64,000 nucleotides of DNA, from contig JAFGFE010000018.1 in NCBI GenBank assembly GCA_016931225.1, forward strand, positions 186,001-250,000, in the 5' to 3' direction. The stretch comes from Candidatus Zymogenaceae bacterium. Lineage in GTDB: Bacteria > Desulfobacterota > Zymogenia > Zymogenales > Zymogenaceae. Shown piece after piece: positions 53,070 through 61,585 of the stretch; the first letter of the stretch is position 1, and the number at the start of each line of letters is the position of its first letter. The position numbers and the translations under genes were made by a program. Below the pieces are notes generated by a model, which was not told the origin of the DNA, did not search any database, and saw only the letters and a program-made list of their open reading frames with translations.

Positions 53070-54656
53070 GTGGATTTTTTCGTGCCTGAAGCGCTCACGG
53101 AAACCGTCGAGAACAACGTGCGGATTCATGGATTTTTTCCTTGGGGAGAAAAAAGGCTTTTCGTCAAGCTCTTCAAAGGGATGTCAACGGCCGAGCGTAT
53201 CAAGTCTTTGTTTCTCGGCTGCAAGGCGATGAGGGAATTCAGGGCGGGGCGATATCTCGCACTGCGGGGCGTCCGGACGCCGACGATATGTGCCGTGGGA
53301 ATGGAAAGGGGCGGAAGGAAGAGGGCTGTCCTCGTCTTCGAGGAGGCCGAAGGGGCCGAATCCGTGCACTGGCTTCTCGAAAAACGGGGGATTGCCGACC
53401 TTTCCGGTCTCACAGAGGGGCTGTCGGATATCACGGCAACCCTCCACGATGCGGGATTTTATCACCGGGATTACCATGTCGGCAACCTCCTGGCAGCGTC
53501 GGAAAATGTCCGTGACCTGATCGTCATCGACCTGCATCGCGCGTCCCACCCCCGCTCCATGTCCGGCAGACGGGGCCTTGAAAACATCGCGGACCTTCTC
53601 CAGTCCGTGACACCGGACGGGGACCCCGCGGTCATCAGGTCCTTTCTCACGCGCTATCTGGAACGGAGGCCGGACGTTTCCTGGGGACTTTCCGACGGTG
53701 CGGCGTATGTCGAAAGACGCGTCGCCGCCCGGGAGCGGCGTCGGCTTTTAAGCCGCACGAAGCGATGCTTTAAAAACTCCACCGAATATTTCGCCGTCCG
53801 CACGAAGGGGACTCTACTCTTCGGCAGGAGGGCTGCGTTCGCGGACGGCGGCCGGAACCCGAAGGGGGCGCTGGATGACATCCTCTCCCTGGTTCGCCGT
53901 CTCGAGACGAACGGCGGCGATGTCATCAAGGACGACACCAAGGCCCGGGTGATCCTGATTTCGGGAAAAGACGGAGAGGTGTGCGTCAAAGCGTATGAGC
54001 GATTGTCCGTGGGGGAGCGGATGCGGACGTTTTTCAGAATGTCCCGGGGCCATCGTTCCTGGCGCGCGGCCCGGGGGCTTTTTGTAAGGGGATTTTCGGT
54101 GCCGGCTCCAATCGCGCTGTTGGTTCGAAAGAAGCTGGGCGTCCCTGCGGCCGTCTATCTGGTGACCGACTCCATCAGGAGACACGCCGCCCTGGAGCTG
54201 GATCGTTTCATCCTCTCGATACAGACGGACGGGGAGATTCTTGTGCGGTGCGTAACGGCCGTCGCGCGGCTTTTGGGATCGATGCACCGAATGGGGATTT
54301 ACCACCGGGATCTGAAGGCCACGAATATCGCCGTTCGGACGTCACCTGAAGGCGATCAAATGGAGCTGTTTCTTCTGGATCTCGACGCCGTGGCCTTCGG
54401 CGATCGGGTGCCGGTAGCCTCGATGGCCAAGAACCTGACCCAGCTTCATCTCTCGACCCCGTCGGTGATCGGTGGTGACCTTCGGCGTTTGTTTTTTTCC
54501 GAATATCGGGATATGCTGGGAGACGACGGAATCGCAGGACGTGTGTGTGAGAGGCTTCCCGAATTGATCCGCGGCGAGGATATCCTGTACGTATCCCCGG
54601 AGGGGGATGTGACCGAATCGGCGGCCTCGCTTTTTCAGGAATTGTTTGAGAAATGA
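53070..54656 (+). CDS. Tandem two-domain Kdo/WaaP-like LPS kinase
   Basis: A 528-residue protein with two kinase-like halves. The first has Lys33 (FVKLFKG), YHRDYHVGN (Asp134, Asn139) and VIDLHRAS (Asp154). The second has Lys308 (CVKAYE), YHRDLKATN (Asp414, Asn419) and LLDLDAVAFG (Asp437). The key residues of the Kdo kinase/WaaP family are thus kept in both. Such enzymes phosphorylate Kdo or heptose of the LPS inner core. The GTG at 53070 is the first standard start; the frame continues open upstream to 52980 with coding-like sequence (IERIEYIRRTSAHFDWHIRRGWE), so the true start may be a rare codon upstream. asnB follows six bases after the stop. Confidence 0.82.
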   Translation: MDFFVPEALTETVENNVRIHGFFPWGEKRLFVKLFKGMSTAERIKSLFLGCKAMREFRAGRYLALRGVRTPTICAVGMERGGRKRAVLVFEEAEGAESVHWLLEKRGIADLSGLTEGLSDITATLHDAGFYHRDYHVGNLLAASENVRDLIVIDLHRASHPRSMSGRRGLENIADLLQSVTPDGDPAVIRSFLTRYLERRPDVSWGLSDGAAYVERRVAARERRRLLSRTKRCFKNSTEYFAVRTKGTLLFGRRAAFADGGRNPKGALDDILSLVRRLETNGGDVIKDDTKARVILISGKDGEVCVKAYERLSVGERMRTFFRMSRGHRSWRAARGLFVRGFSVPAPIALLVRKKLGVPAAVYLVTDSIRRHAALELDRFILSIQTDGEILVRCVTAVARLLGSMHRMGIYHRDLKATNIAVRTSPEGDQMELFLLDLDAVAFGDRVPVASMAKNLTQLHLSTPSVIGGDLRRLFFSEYRDMLGDDGIAGRVCERLPELIRGEDILYVSPEGDVTESAASLFQELFEK

Positions 54657-57859: not shown

Positions 57860-58834
57860 ATGAATGTATTGGTCACCGGGGGGGCGGGATTTATCGGCTC
57901 ACACCTGGCGCAGCGGCACCTCTCCCGGGGTGATGAGGTATATATCATCGACAACCTCTCGACCGGAAGTCTCGAGAATATCGAATCGATTCGATACGAT
58001 AACAAATGCCACGTGGTCATCGACTCCGTTCTCAATGAGGGGGTGATGAACGAGCTGGCGGGAAAGTGTGATGTCATCTATCATATGGCCGCGGCGGTGG
58101 GCGTAAAGCTCATCATGGAAAACCCGGTGGAGACGATACAGACCAATGTTCGGGGAACGGAGGTGGTCCTCAAGGTCGCAAATCTCTTCAAGCGAAAGAC
58201 CATGATCGCGTCCACCTCGGAGGTGTACGGGAAGGCGATGAACATCAAGGAAGGGGAGATGATATTGAGCGAAGGGGATGATTTTCTGCTGGGTCCCACC
58301 AGCAAGCGCCGATGGGCGTATGCCTGTTCGAAGGCCATCGACGAATTTCTTTCCCTCGCGTATTACGACGAGAAGGGACTGCCGGTGTCCATCGTGCGGC
58401 TTTTCAATACCGTCGGCCCCCGTCAAACCGGGCGCTACGGCATGGTCATCCCGACCTTCGTGCAAAACGCTCTTTTGGGAAAGTCGCTGCCGGTATTTGG
58501 CGACGGCACTCAATCCCGCAGCTTTACTCATGTGAACGATGTCATCGACGCTCTTATAACGCTGATGGAGACCGACGACGCCACCGGAGAGGTCATCAAT
58601 GTCGGCAGCGGCGAGGAAATTACCATCAACGAGCTTGCGAAAAAGATCATAGCAGTGACGAAGAGTAAATCGGAAATTGAATATATTCCGTATGATAAGG
58701 TATATGGCCCCGGTTTTGAAGATATGAATCGACGCTGTCCCGATCTTGAAAAGGTCAAGCGACTGATCGATTACACACCGAAGAACGGGATAGACGATAT
58801 CATCCGGGACGTTATTGCATATTATGGAAGTTAA
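57860..58834 (+). CDS. Sugar-nucleotide SDR, UDP-glucuronate decarboxylase-like
   Basis: A 324-residue extended SDR: VTGGAGFIGSHLAQ, IDNLSTGS, YHMAAAVGVK, STSEVYG, and the catalytic YxxxK in WAYACSKAIDEF. The RLFNTVGPRQTGRYGMVIP and SRSFTHVNDVIDA segments place it with the UDP-glucuronate decarboxylase/UDP-glucose 4-epimerase group. It would supply UDP-xylose or a related donor; the exact reaction is inferred. The next gene starts at the base after its stop. Confidence 0.88.
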   Translation: MNVLVTGGAGFIGSHLAQRHLSRGDEVYIIDNLSTGSLENIESIRYDNKCHVVIDSVLNEGVMNELAGKCDVIYHMAAAVGVKLIMENPVETIQTNVRGTEVVLKVANLFKRKTMIASTSEVYGKAMNIKEGEMILSEGDDFLLGPTSKRRWAYACSKAIDEFLSLAYYDEKGLPVSIVRLFNTVGPRQTGRYGMVIPTFVQNALLGKSLPVFGDGTQSRSFTHVNDVIDALITLMETDDATGEVINVGSGEEITINELAKKIIAVTKSKSEIEYIPYDKVYGPGFEDMNRRCPDLEKVKRLIDYTPKNGIDDIIRDVIAYYGS

Positions 58835-60637
58835 ATGAGCGGGACCTATACAATCGTCCTCTTGTCGTTCATCGGGGCGTTGATGGTTTCGTGGGTGGGA
58901 ACCAGAATTGTCATCTTCCTTGCCCCCCGCTTCGGCTGGATTGCAGAGATTTCAAGAGACCGCTGGCATACCCAACCAACTGCCTTGATGGGGGGGATCG
59001 CCATTTATACGGCGATCGTCACGAGCATACTGGTCTTCTTCATACTCCTGTCCGATTTCAACGATCGACGGGTATGGGGACTCCTGCTGGGAAGCACCAT
59101 GATATTCATCCTGGGGTTGATCGACGACAGGAAGTATGTGTCCCCGCTGGTCAAAATCATCGTTCAGGTAGCCGCCGCCGGTGTGGTGGTGATCTTCGGA
59201 GCCTTTTCCGAGTTTTTTCCTCCGCTCATCGGGATACCGCTGTCTATCTTCTGGATCATCGCCATCACCAACGCATTTAACCTGATAGACAATATGGACG
59301 GCCTGTCTTCGGGAATCGCGGCCATCACGTCCCTGTGTATCATGGTGCTGTCTTTATTGATGGGGTGGCATGAAACGGCGGTCCTGGCGGCGGTCATGGT
59401 CGGCGCCGCTTTGGGATTTTTACGCTACAATTTCAATCCCGCACGGATTTTCATGGGGGATTGCGGCGCCCTGTTGATCGGTTTTTACCTTGCGGTCATC
59501 ACCCTCATCGGAACCATGACTCACATGTCCAACGTCATTGTCGTACTCGTGGTGCCGCTGTTGGTGATGGCTGTCCCCATCCTGGACACCACGTTCGTGA
59601 CGGTCATGCGAACGATCTCGGGACGCCCCTTCTACCAGGGGGGGAGGGATCATACCTCGCACCGGATGGTGATACAGGGGATGTCCGAGCGGAGAGCGGT
59701 GCTCTATATTTATTTTTTCTCGCTGGTCTTCGGGCTGTTCGCGGTTCTTTTCGCCCTGCCCGGGGTGAACCTCGTCCCGGTGGCGGTACTTTTGATCGTC
59801 ATGGTCATCTTCCTGTTTCTGTTGGGATTATTTCTGGGAAGAGCGGAGGTAGGGGATGCAAGGCAGCGGGCCGCCCGGCCGGGAAGGGATAGGGCGATCA
59901 CCGATCGAATCTCGCAGAGGCGGAGACGCCTTTTTGAGATCGTGGCGGATTCGCTGAACGTCATCGCAGCGTATATATTGGCGTATCTGATCATCGGGCA
60001 GTGGTATATCGATCCCGAGACGGCTTTCCGCATCGGCCAATCGCTCCCCATTTTCATCTTTTTCCAGATGGTCTCCTTTTACTTTTTCGGCCTGTATCGA
60101 AGGCTGCCGGAGTTTGTCTCCCTCTCCGATGTGCTGCTGGTGGTGCTGGCCGCCGCCCTGGGGACGGTGGTATCGTCCGTCGTATTATTCCTCTTCACGT
60201 TCTTTCAGGGGTACTCATCGTCGGTGATGATCGTCTATTTCCTTATCGTGTCGTTCCTTGTGTCGGCCCGCCTGACCAGTCTTCGATGGTTTAAGGAATA
60301 TTTCACCCAGCAGCGGGCCAGAAAAGAGCTGCGGCGTGTCTTAATTTTCGGAGCGGGCGATTCCGGCAACGCCGTTCTCCAGGAGATACTGAACAACCGG
60401 AATCTGGGCCTGAGGCCGCTGTGCTTTCTTGACGACGATCCGGCCAAGAGAGGAAGCATGATCAGCGGCGTGAAGGTGAGGGGAGACAGGAAGTGTATGA
60501 AAGCGGTCATCGAGGAACGACGGATCGACGAGGTGATCATCGCGGTCAGGAACCTCCCCGATGATGTCGGGGAATACATAGAACAAATCTGCGGAGATAT
60601 GGGAGTTTCCGTCCGACGAGCGGGGAACATCATTTAA
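58835..60637 (+). CDS. Fusion of a WecA/MraY-type polyprenyl-phosphate sugar-1-P transferase and a WbpM-like N-terminal region
   Basis: A 600-residue membrane protein. Residues 1-335 form the transferase: LGLIDDRKY (Asp97, Asp98), NAFNLIDNMDGLSSG (146-160), FMGDCGALLIGF (206-217) and GGRDHTSHR (269-277), as in WecA and RfbP-type enzymes that start O-antigen units on undecaprenyl phosphate. After a charged linker (340-368) come four membrane spans (about 370-480) and a Rossmann part (RVLIFGAGDSGNAVLQEIL, CFLDDDPAKRGSMISGVKVRG), which match the front half of WbpM/CapD nucleotide-sugar dehydratases. The catalytic SDR half is absent. The SDR gene at 60650 follows by 12 bases. Confidence 0.88.
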   Translation: MSGTYTIVLLSFIGALMVSWVGTRIVIFLAPRFGWIAEISRDRWHTQPTALMGGIAIYTAIVTSILVFFILLSDFNDRRVWGLLLGSTMIFILGLIDDRKYVSPLVKIIVQVAAAGVVVIFGAFSEFFPPLIGIPLSIFWIIAITNAFNLIDNMDGLSSGIAAITSLCIMVLSLLMGWHETAVLAAVMVGAALGFLRYNFNPARIFMGDCGALLIGFYLAVITLIGTMTHMSNVIVVLVVPLLVMAVPILDTTFVTVMRTISGRPFYQGGRDHTSHRMVIQGMSERRAVLYIYFFSLVFGLFAVLFALPGVNLVPVAVLLIVMVIFLFLLGLFLGRAEVGDARQRAARPGRDRAITDRISQRRRRLFEIVADSLNVIAAYILAYLIIGQWYIDPETAFRIGQSLPIFIFFQMVSFYFFGLYRRLPEFVSLSDVLLVVLAAALGTVVSSVVLFLFTFFQGYSSSVMIVYFLIVSFLVSARLTSLRWFKEYFTQQRARKELRRVLIFGAGDSGNAVLQEILNNRNLGLRPLCFLDDDPAKRGSMISGVKVRGDRKCMKAVIEERRIDEVIIAVRNLPDDVGEYIEQICGDMGVSVRRAGNII

Positions 60638-60649
60638 GGGAATACACAC

Positions 60650-61585
60650 ATGAACTGTCTGGTAACGGGAGGGGCGGGATTTATCGGATCCCACATAGTC
60701 AAGGCGCTTGTAGATCGTGGAGATCGGGTGCGTGTAATCGATAATTTTTCCAGCGGGAAACGAGACAACCTGAAAGAGGTCCTGCCCGATATAGAGCTAG
60801 TTGAGGGGGATATCAGGGATGCGGATGTGACAAGGAGCGTCGCAACGGGTATCACCGCCGTCTTCCATCTCGCCGCCGTTCCATCGGTCCCAAGATCGAT
60901 ACAGGAGCCGAGGCTGACACACCAAGTAAACGTCGACGGCACCTTCAACATGCTCATGGCCGCCAAGGATGCGGGTGTTTCCCGATTCGTCTTTTCATCT
61001 TCTTCGTCGATTTACGGGGATACCGAAACGCTTCCAAAGATCGAGGACATGATACCCATGCCCAAGTCGCCCTACGCCCTGCAAAAACTGATCGGGGAGC
61101 AGTATTCCAGGATATTCTCTGAAATCTACGGAATTTCCACAATATGTCTCAGGTATTTTAATGTCTTCGGGCCCAGACAGAATCCCGAATCCGAATACGC
61201 CGCCGTAATACCCAGGTTCATCACCTCCATGATAAACGATCGGCCGCCGACCATTTACGGAGACGGAACCCAGACCAGGGATTTCACCTATGTGTCGAAC
61301 GCGGTAAGCGCGAATCTTTTGGCCGCCGAAAAAGATTCATTCAAGGGAGAGATTGTGAATATATCCACCGGTATCCAGCTGGATCTCAACAGCCTTGCGA
61401 AGAAGGTGGGAGAGATCGTAAACCGGGACTATGACCCGATATACGAAGCATCCCGGCCGGGTGATGTAAAGCACTCTCTGGGAGGCATCAAAAAGGCGAA
61501 AGACCTCCTGGGGTACCGGGTCGTTACGCCGCTGGATCAGGGGCTGGTAGCCACATACGAAGCCTTTTCATCATACCGGGCATGA
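60650..61585 (+). CDS. Sugar-nucleotide SDR, UDP-GlcNAc/UDP-Glc 4-epimerase-like
   Basis: A 311-residue extended SDR: VTGGAGFIGSHIVKAL, IDNFSSGK, HLAAVPSVPRSI, SSSSSIYGD, the catalytic YxxxK in SPYALQKLIGEQ, and LRYFNVFGPRQNPESEYAAVIPRFI. It resembles WbpP/TviC-type UDP-N-acetylglucosamine 4-epimerases. AAGGGA precedes the ATG. It follows the transferase-WbpM fusion by 12 bases and may provide the sugar that the fusion protein transfers; that coupling is inference. Confidence 0.9.
   Translation: MNCLVTGGAGFIGSHIVKALVDRGDRVRVIDNFSSGKRDNLKEVLPDIELVEGDIRDADVTRSVATGITAVFHLAAVPSVPRSIQEPRLTHQVNVDGTFNMLMAAKDAGVSRFVFSSSSSIYGDTETLPKIEDMIPMPKSPYALQKLIGEQYSRIFSEIYGISTICLRYFNVFGPRQNPESEYAAVIPRFITSMINDRPPTIYGDGTQTRDFTYVSNAVSANLLAAEKDSFKGEIVNISTGIQLDLNSLAKKVGEIVNRDYDPIYEASRPGDVKHSLGGIKKAKDLLGYRVVTPLDQGLVATYEAFSSYRA

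Follow-up and report, generated by a model that had tools for sequence, protein, structure and literature searches.

Among the enzymes that carry the Rossmann module named DUF or CoA_binding_3 (PF13727), the large monotopic phosphoglycosyl transferases (PGTs), such as WbaP, WcaJ and EpsZ, are those in which it has been best studied. The isolated DUF of WbaP is stabilized by UMP, UDP and UTP, and UMP acts on the enzyme as an inhibitor (apparent IC50, 4.1 µM) (PMC10942596; eLife 2024). The same report places the N-terminal module of WbaP also in PglF-like dehydratases, its authors finding it puzzling that functionally unrelated enzymes have it in common, and polytopic PGTs are entered in its Table 1 as 'PGT only' (PMC10942596). 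The EpsZ protein of Myxococcus, in which the β-hairpin is absent, is described as activated by a partner, a response regulator, and in models its DUF is the site of the partner-induced dimerization (PMC12802240).

Here we analyzed a window of 64,000 nucleotides from a Candidatus Zymogenaceae genome, in which a polytopic PGT is fused to this module. The protein shares with the WecA/MraY-type polytopic PGTs (PF00953) the fold and the catalytic Asp and His residues and differs from them by an additional C-terminal module of four helices plus PF13727. The UDP-HexNAc 4,6-dehydratases WbpM, PglF and CapD have the N-terminal module closest to its C-half, both by profile score and by tree, but the fusion has neither their Polysacc_synt_2 domain nor their hairpin, and its catalytic partner is a PGT placed at the N-terminal side. 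The loading of a sugar phosphate on undecaprenyl phosphate is probably common to the fusion and the large monotopic PGTs; however, the catalytic fold of the latter is unrelated and their module is N-terminal instead of C-terminal, the hairpin is absent from the fusion, and the module sequences of both groups fall apart in a tree.

Domain architecture of the fusion protein

The gene (58835..60637, forward strand) has an ATG start, which abuts the stop codon of the upstream gene and is preceded 4 bases 5' by GGAAG, and 600 codons without internal stops. In Pfam, its 600-aa product matched Glycos_transf_4 at residues 81-226 (E 9.2e-36, 123.7 bits against a cut-off of 27) and CoA_binding_3 at residues 427-570 (E 1.2e-13, 51.9 bits, cut-off 25). 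Both families were likewise matched by the 47 members of alignment A1, which comprises 47 of the 61 aligned fusions and was the input for the AlphaFold2 model. The NCBIfam WecA model TIGR02380 gave 94 bits, below its curated cut-off of 326, and the protein is not a WecA in that strict sense. Neither the Polysacc_synt_2 dehydratase domain (PF02719) nor the Bac_transf monotopic transferase domain (PF02397) was found in it by Pfam at E<=0.1. The first was present in all eight WbpM-type comparators scanned and the second in both large monotopic PGTs scanned, Pfam confirming the type of these ten comparators.

The AlphaFold2 model (pLDDT 90.5, pTM 0.86) showed about 11 membrane-length helices within residues 2-334, which belong to the WecA/MraY-type catalytic domain (residues 1-335; 58835..59839, forward strand), and residues 1-310 resembled MraY in the PDB with Z ~35 and rmsd of 2.1-2.5. 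A positively charged linker (residues 336-372; 59840..59950, forward strand), which overlaps a strongly basic stretch at residues 335-367, continues into helix 1 of the C-half. The four-helix membrane bundle (residues 350-495; 59882..60319, forward strand), comparable to the N-termini of WbaP and WbpM/PglF, was modelled as helices 350-387, 394-417, 430-455 and 462-495. It is followed by the Rossmann DUF (residues 498-600; 60326..60634, forward strand), with alternating strands and helices at 500-599, which stops short of the WbpM hairpin and dehydratase. Residues 498-600 superposed on a WbpM-type Rossmann part (3nkl) with Z 15.8 and rmsd 1.8 over 100 residues. Residues 359-598 covered the helices and the DUF of WbaP (8t53) with Z 10.9, but the rmsd was 12.1 over 209 residues, so that the angle between helices and DUF probably differs in the fusion. 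When the C-half was modelled separately, WbaP 8t53 was the top Foldseek match (245 columns), while a second structure comparison gave 3nkl first and then NAD(H)-sensing Rex chains, with Z 13-14; since the pTM of this model was 0.63, the angle between helix bundle and Rossmann domain is uncertain.

These data confirm the architecture proposed by a previous sequence-only reading. Its WecA-type N-terminal transferase is borne out by the Glycos_transf_4 match, the MraY-like model and the invariant catalytic residues described below, its four membrane spans and CoA-binding-like Rossmann domain at the C-terminus are seen in the model and in the PF13727 match, and the dehydratase that it considered missing gave no PF02719 match.

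Distribution of the fusion

A frameshift or a misassembly joining two separate genes is ruled out by the alignment of 61 distinct full-length fusions (without L009, a duplicate of L041, and L057, which is cut) and by the 395 genomes of the window's phylum, among which 94 matched at E<=1e-40 and 59, as counted by reading the match rows, had a full-span match in a single open frame. The fusion of the sister-family genomes was 56-60% identical from end to end. A search of relatives gave one-frame fusions in 9 of 59 genomes, and in a scan of genome contigs (81 stretches encoding a relative, 80 loci retained) the same domain order was in one frame at 54 loci. Homologues with the same domain order, whose absence the sequence-only reading had set beside frameshift and misassembly as contrary evidence, are thus present in the sister family and beyond.

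According to the labels in public records, the fusion occurs in Thermodesulfobacteriota, Acidobacteriota, Nitrospinota, Gemmatimonadota, Omnitrophota, Planctomycetota, NC10 and Rokubacteria, as well as in records labelled 'Deltaproteobacteria' that the search tool classes under Myxococcota. It is also present in Desulfonema magnum 4be13 (L064), a strain with a complete genome. In one metagenome-assembled genome (L091, 2959-4828) the fusion is seemingly split by a frameshift, with the transferase half in one frame and part of the module in another. No protein with WecA, module and dehydratase together was seen among the relatives; open frames of 990-994 aa which could be taken for such tri-domain proteins contain stops and correspond to a WecA-type gene followed by an adjacent WbpM-type gene. 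In addition, six loci (L019, L020, L022, L027, L029 and L030) encode WecA-type proteins of 485-549 aa whose C-terminal extensions gave no match to the fused module or to Pfam. Searches of open-licence PMC full text gave no paper in which PF13727 is described on a polytopic PGT. Therefore, as far as this literature was searched, the domains are known singly and their combination is apparently undescribed.

Origin of the C-terminal half

A profile of the fused C-half scored WbpM-type proteins with 142-270 bits and large monotopic PGTs with no more than 135 bits. In a C-half tree of 58 rows (34 fusions, 9 WbpM-type proteins and 15 large PGTs), the large PGTs were separated with an SH-aLRT of 100, and fusions and WbpM-type proteins were together, each at one side of a branch, the fusion branch having a support of 23. 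Both analyses agree with the earlier view of the C-half as the front part of a WbpM-like protein. NCBIfam matches of the fusion to TIGR03025, TIGR03023 and TIGR03022 suggested instead a large monotopic PGT as source, which we reject on the profile scores and the tree, the latter with the weak side of that support of 23.

At three loci (L016, 382-3363; L028, 355-3327; L032, 355-3309), a WecA-type gene and a complete WbpM-type dehydratase gene adjoin in this order and in the same orientation, separated by 9 nt in L016 and by 72 nt in the other two. A fusion of this type could originate from such a gene pair. However, the WecA genes of these loci are distant relatives and, as a consequence, the parallel is an analogy.

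In a first tree of the N-half, the fusions were interspersed with stand-alone rows and a single clade was rejected (p 8.9e-75), but among those stand-alone rows L084 and L105 were cut by contig ends and L091 is the frame-shifted fusion. The tree was rebuilt with 25 fusions and without these three rows, without duplicates or near-copies (L129, L140, L087, L088, L096, L108, L109, L111 and L112) and without distant or long rows (L113, L110, L107, L016, L032, L028, L103, L030 and L029). A single fork (SH-aLRT 97) then gathered all fusions, and five apparent stand-alone enzymes were placed within it, which makes five changes and allows a single gain of the module followed by several losses. Stand-alone enzymes nested among fusions would be expected if the module is accessory. 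They would also be expected, like the disappearance of dehydratase and hairpin, if the module were a vestige, or a leftover of purely structural value, from the fusion of a WecA with a WbpM gene, a possibility that we consider improbable in view of its retention across many phyla together with its motif residues (G506 in 60/61 fusions, D533 in 60/61 and C586 in 57/61) and of the fixed length of the linker, the spacing between L334 and D372 being 36-40 residues in 58 of the 61 fusions (full range 27-40).

Residue conservation and proposed function

Ten residues of the N-half (D97, D98, N149, D152, D155, D209, R259, D272, H273 and R277) were invariant in the 61 fusions. A catalytic role is known for D97, D98, D152, D155, D209, D272 and H273 from work on WecA and MraY. 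In the C-half, a complete GxGxxG together with an acidic residue at the end of β-2 was present in 54 of 61 fusions, in 8 of 10 WbpM-type proteins and in 7 of 19 large monotopic PGTs. The window protein has both elements, GAGDSG (60350-60367, forward strand) and D533 (codon at 60431-60433, forward strand), and the nucleotide fingerprint of the module appears to be free of decay. Beyond the C586 column only 12-42 residues (median 21) remain in the fusions, while WbpM-type proteins continue with GRVsVk.iRdV..eDLLgR and large PGTs with a hairpin stretch of their own; the β-hairpin block of the DUF was aligned by none of the nine fusions displayed.

On balance we favor that the protein is an initiating PGT with a built-in nucleotide-sensing module that would tune its activity, the sensing step, as well as the substrate, membrane side, ligand and direction of regulation, being those that we infer. 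The N-half would move HexNAc-1-phosphate from a UDP-sugar to undecaprenyl phosphate at the cytoplasmic face, which would be the first committed step in the synthesis of a polymer of the LPS/O-antigen kind. The C-terminal module, with its four helices and a putatively cytoplasmic Rossmann domain, would derive from a protein of the WbpM/PglF type after loss of the dehydratase, and would be placed on the active-site face of the membrane at a nearly fixed spacing. There its ligand would be a nucleotide, with the by-product UMP as the most likely candidate and a UDP-sugar as the other, and the bound nucleotide would adjust the transferase and thereby keep the scarce undecaprenyl phosphate from being used in excess, as reported for WbaP. 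The release of UMP by WecA-type enzymes is established, and because PGT reactions release it, UMP would be the simplest ligand. The idea of a nucleotide sensor, already put forward from the sequence, finds support in the precedent of the WbaP DUF as reported (PMC10942596); nevertheless, as the fusions are without the hairpin by which the DUF of WbaP dimerizes, the WbaP mechanism cannot apply to them unchanged.

Against a UMP-specific reading, the full dinucleotide fingerprint and the Rex-like fold suit NAD(H) equally well, and NAD(H) is for both reasons a serious rival ligand, Rex, a repressor with a DNA-binding domain that the fusion does not have, being the nearest solved fold after 3nkl. 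If the Rossmann part bound NAD(H) as Rex does, it would couple the committed step to the redox state of the cell. We judge this rather unlikely. Rex models did match the fusion weakly, both in NCBIfam and in the profile search (28 bits), and the fingerprint is more frequent in fusions than in large monotopic PGTs. However, the shared fold is widespread among Rossmann domains, and the DUFs of WbpM-type proteins, for which we know of no redox role, carry the same fingerprint. Furthermore, the homologue that has been studied, WbaP, is reported to respond to uridine nucleotides (PMC10942596).

Whether sensor of UMP or not, the module now has a third host, structurally unrelated to the other two, which separates the hypotheses on its role: this role must be of use to dehydratases as well as to transferases of the monotopic and the polytopic kind, and the dimerizing hairpin cannot be a requirement for it. 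The presence of the same fused protein in several phyla makes this puzzling role easier to test. Tentatively, a single membrane-anchored nucleotide-sensing module on monotopic transferases, polytopic transferases and sugar dehydratases, the three enzyme kinds that supply undecaprenyl-linked glycans, may constitute a general device for the control of the committed step, the polytopic enzymes using it without a hairpin dimer and perhaps sensing NAD(H), or UMP in another way.

Gene neighborhood and genome context

The fusion gene belongs to a cluster (about 43-63.7 kb of the window) that encodes GT9, GT4 and GT2 glycosyltransferases, a DegT aminotransferase, short-chain dehydrogenases/reductases (SDRs), an AsnB-type amidotransferase, a heptose-7-phosphate kinase domain and a double Kdo/WaaP-type kinase protein. 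This gene content makes an LPS/O-antigen-like product likely. The kinase protein (53070-54656) has 528 aa and contains two separate Kdo/WaaP-type kinase stretches.

Neighbor counts were made on 63 fusion ORFs, the window itself included, and are lower bounds as loci with short flanks were counted as well. The gene that follows the fusion (60650..61585, forward strand) starts 12 bases past its stop, as the sequence-only reading had noted, and encodes an extended SDR of the WbpP/WbgU-like UDP-HexNAc(A) 4-epimerase type. From this arrangement that reading suggested a membrane platform linking sugar modification with the loading of undecaprenyl phosphate, in which the SDR would supply the missing step. 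However, in Pfam this SDR scored 221.7 bits with Epimerase and 56 bits with Polysacc_synt_2, its closest solved relatives include 6dnt, WbpP, a capsule protein (10ke) and WbgU, and a homologue was located within 500 nt downstream of at least 4 of the 63 fusions, mainly in the window's own family. The Epimerase-type scores and the WbpP/WbgU relatives rule it out as the missing WbpM dehydratase, and the earlier interpretation, which made no mention of the large monotopic PGTs, is as a whole partly supported. In the window's genome, a stand-alone Polysacc_synt_2 protein (G000:C18:55292-56116; 341 bits) is encoded in a 357-aa open frame, and a full-length WbpM was not found there. PF13727 occurred in that genome only in the fusion and in one large monotopic PGT (G000:C10:51358).

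The upstream gene (57860..58834, forward strand) encodes another extended SDR, similar to UDP-glucuronate decarboxylase (UXS), with 163 bits to 4lk3. A homologue was present within 500 nt upstream and on the same strand in at least 26 of the 63 fusions, being thus a recurrent neighbor. This recurrence, together with the dimerization modelled for the EpsZ DUF, fits a module devoted mainly to the recruitment of the upstream SDR, of a response regulator or of another DUF enzyme as a partner, without any role for a ligand. Such a docking platform would need no conservation of the nucleotide fingerprint. Moreover, this SDR is also beside 7 of 48 non-fused loci, one of them the frame-shifted fusion L091, so that its pairing with the transferase is independent of the module, and no UXS-like SDR was found near the fusions located after purM. 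We therefore regard recruitment alone as unlikely and retain the nucleotide-tuned transferase as the preferred reading.

At L058 (3233-7350) and comparable loci of Desulfobacterales, the fusion gene has purM on its upstream side (at least 16/63) and tsaD on its downstream side (at least 14/63), two housekeeping genes without an obvious connection to glycans. Finally, at L040 (7852-10443) and 12 further loci, that is, at least 13 of 63, a protein of about 405 aa without Pfam match is encoded directly downstream of the fusion. Its gene is often followed by that of a GlmM-like phosphomutase, hinting at a supply of UDP-GlcNAc.
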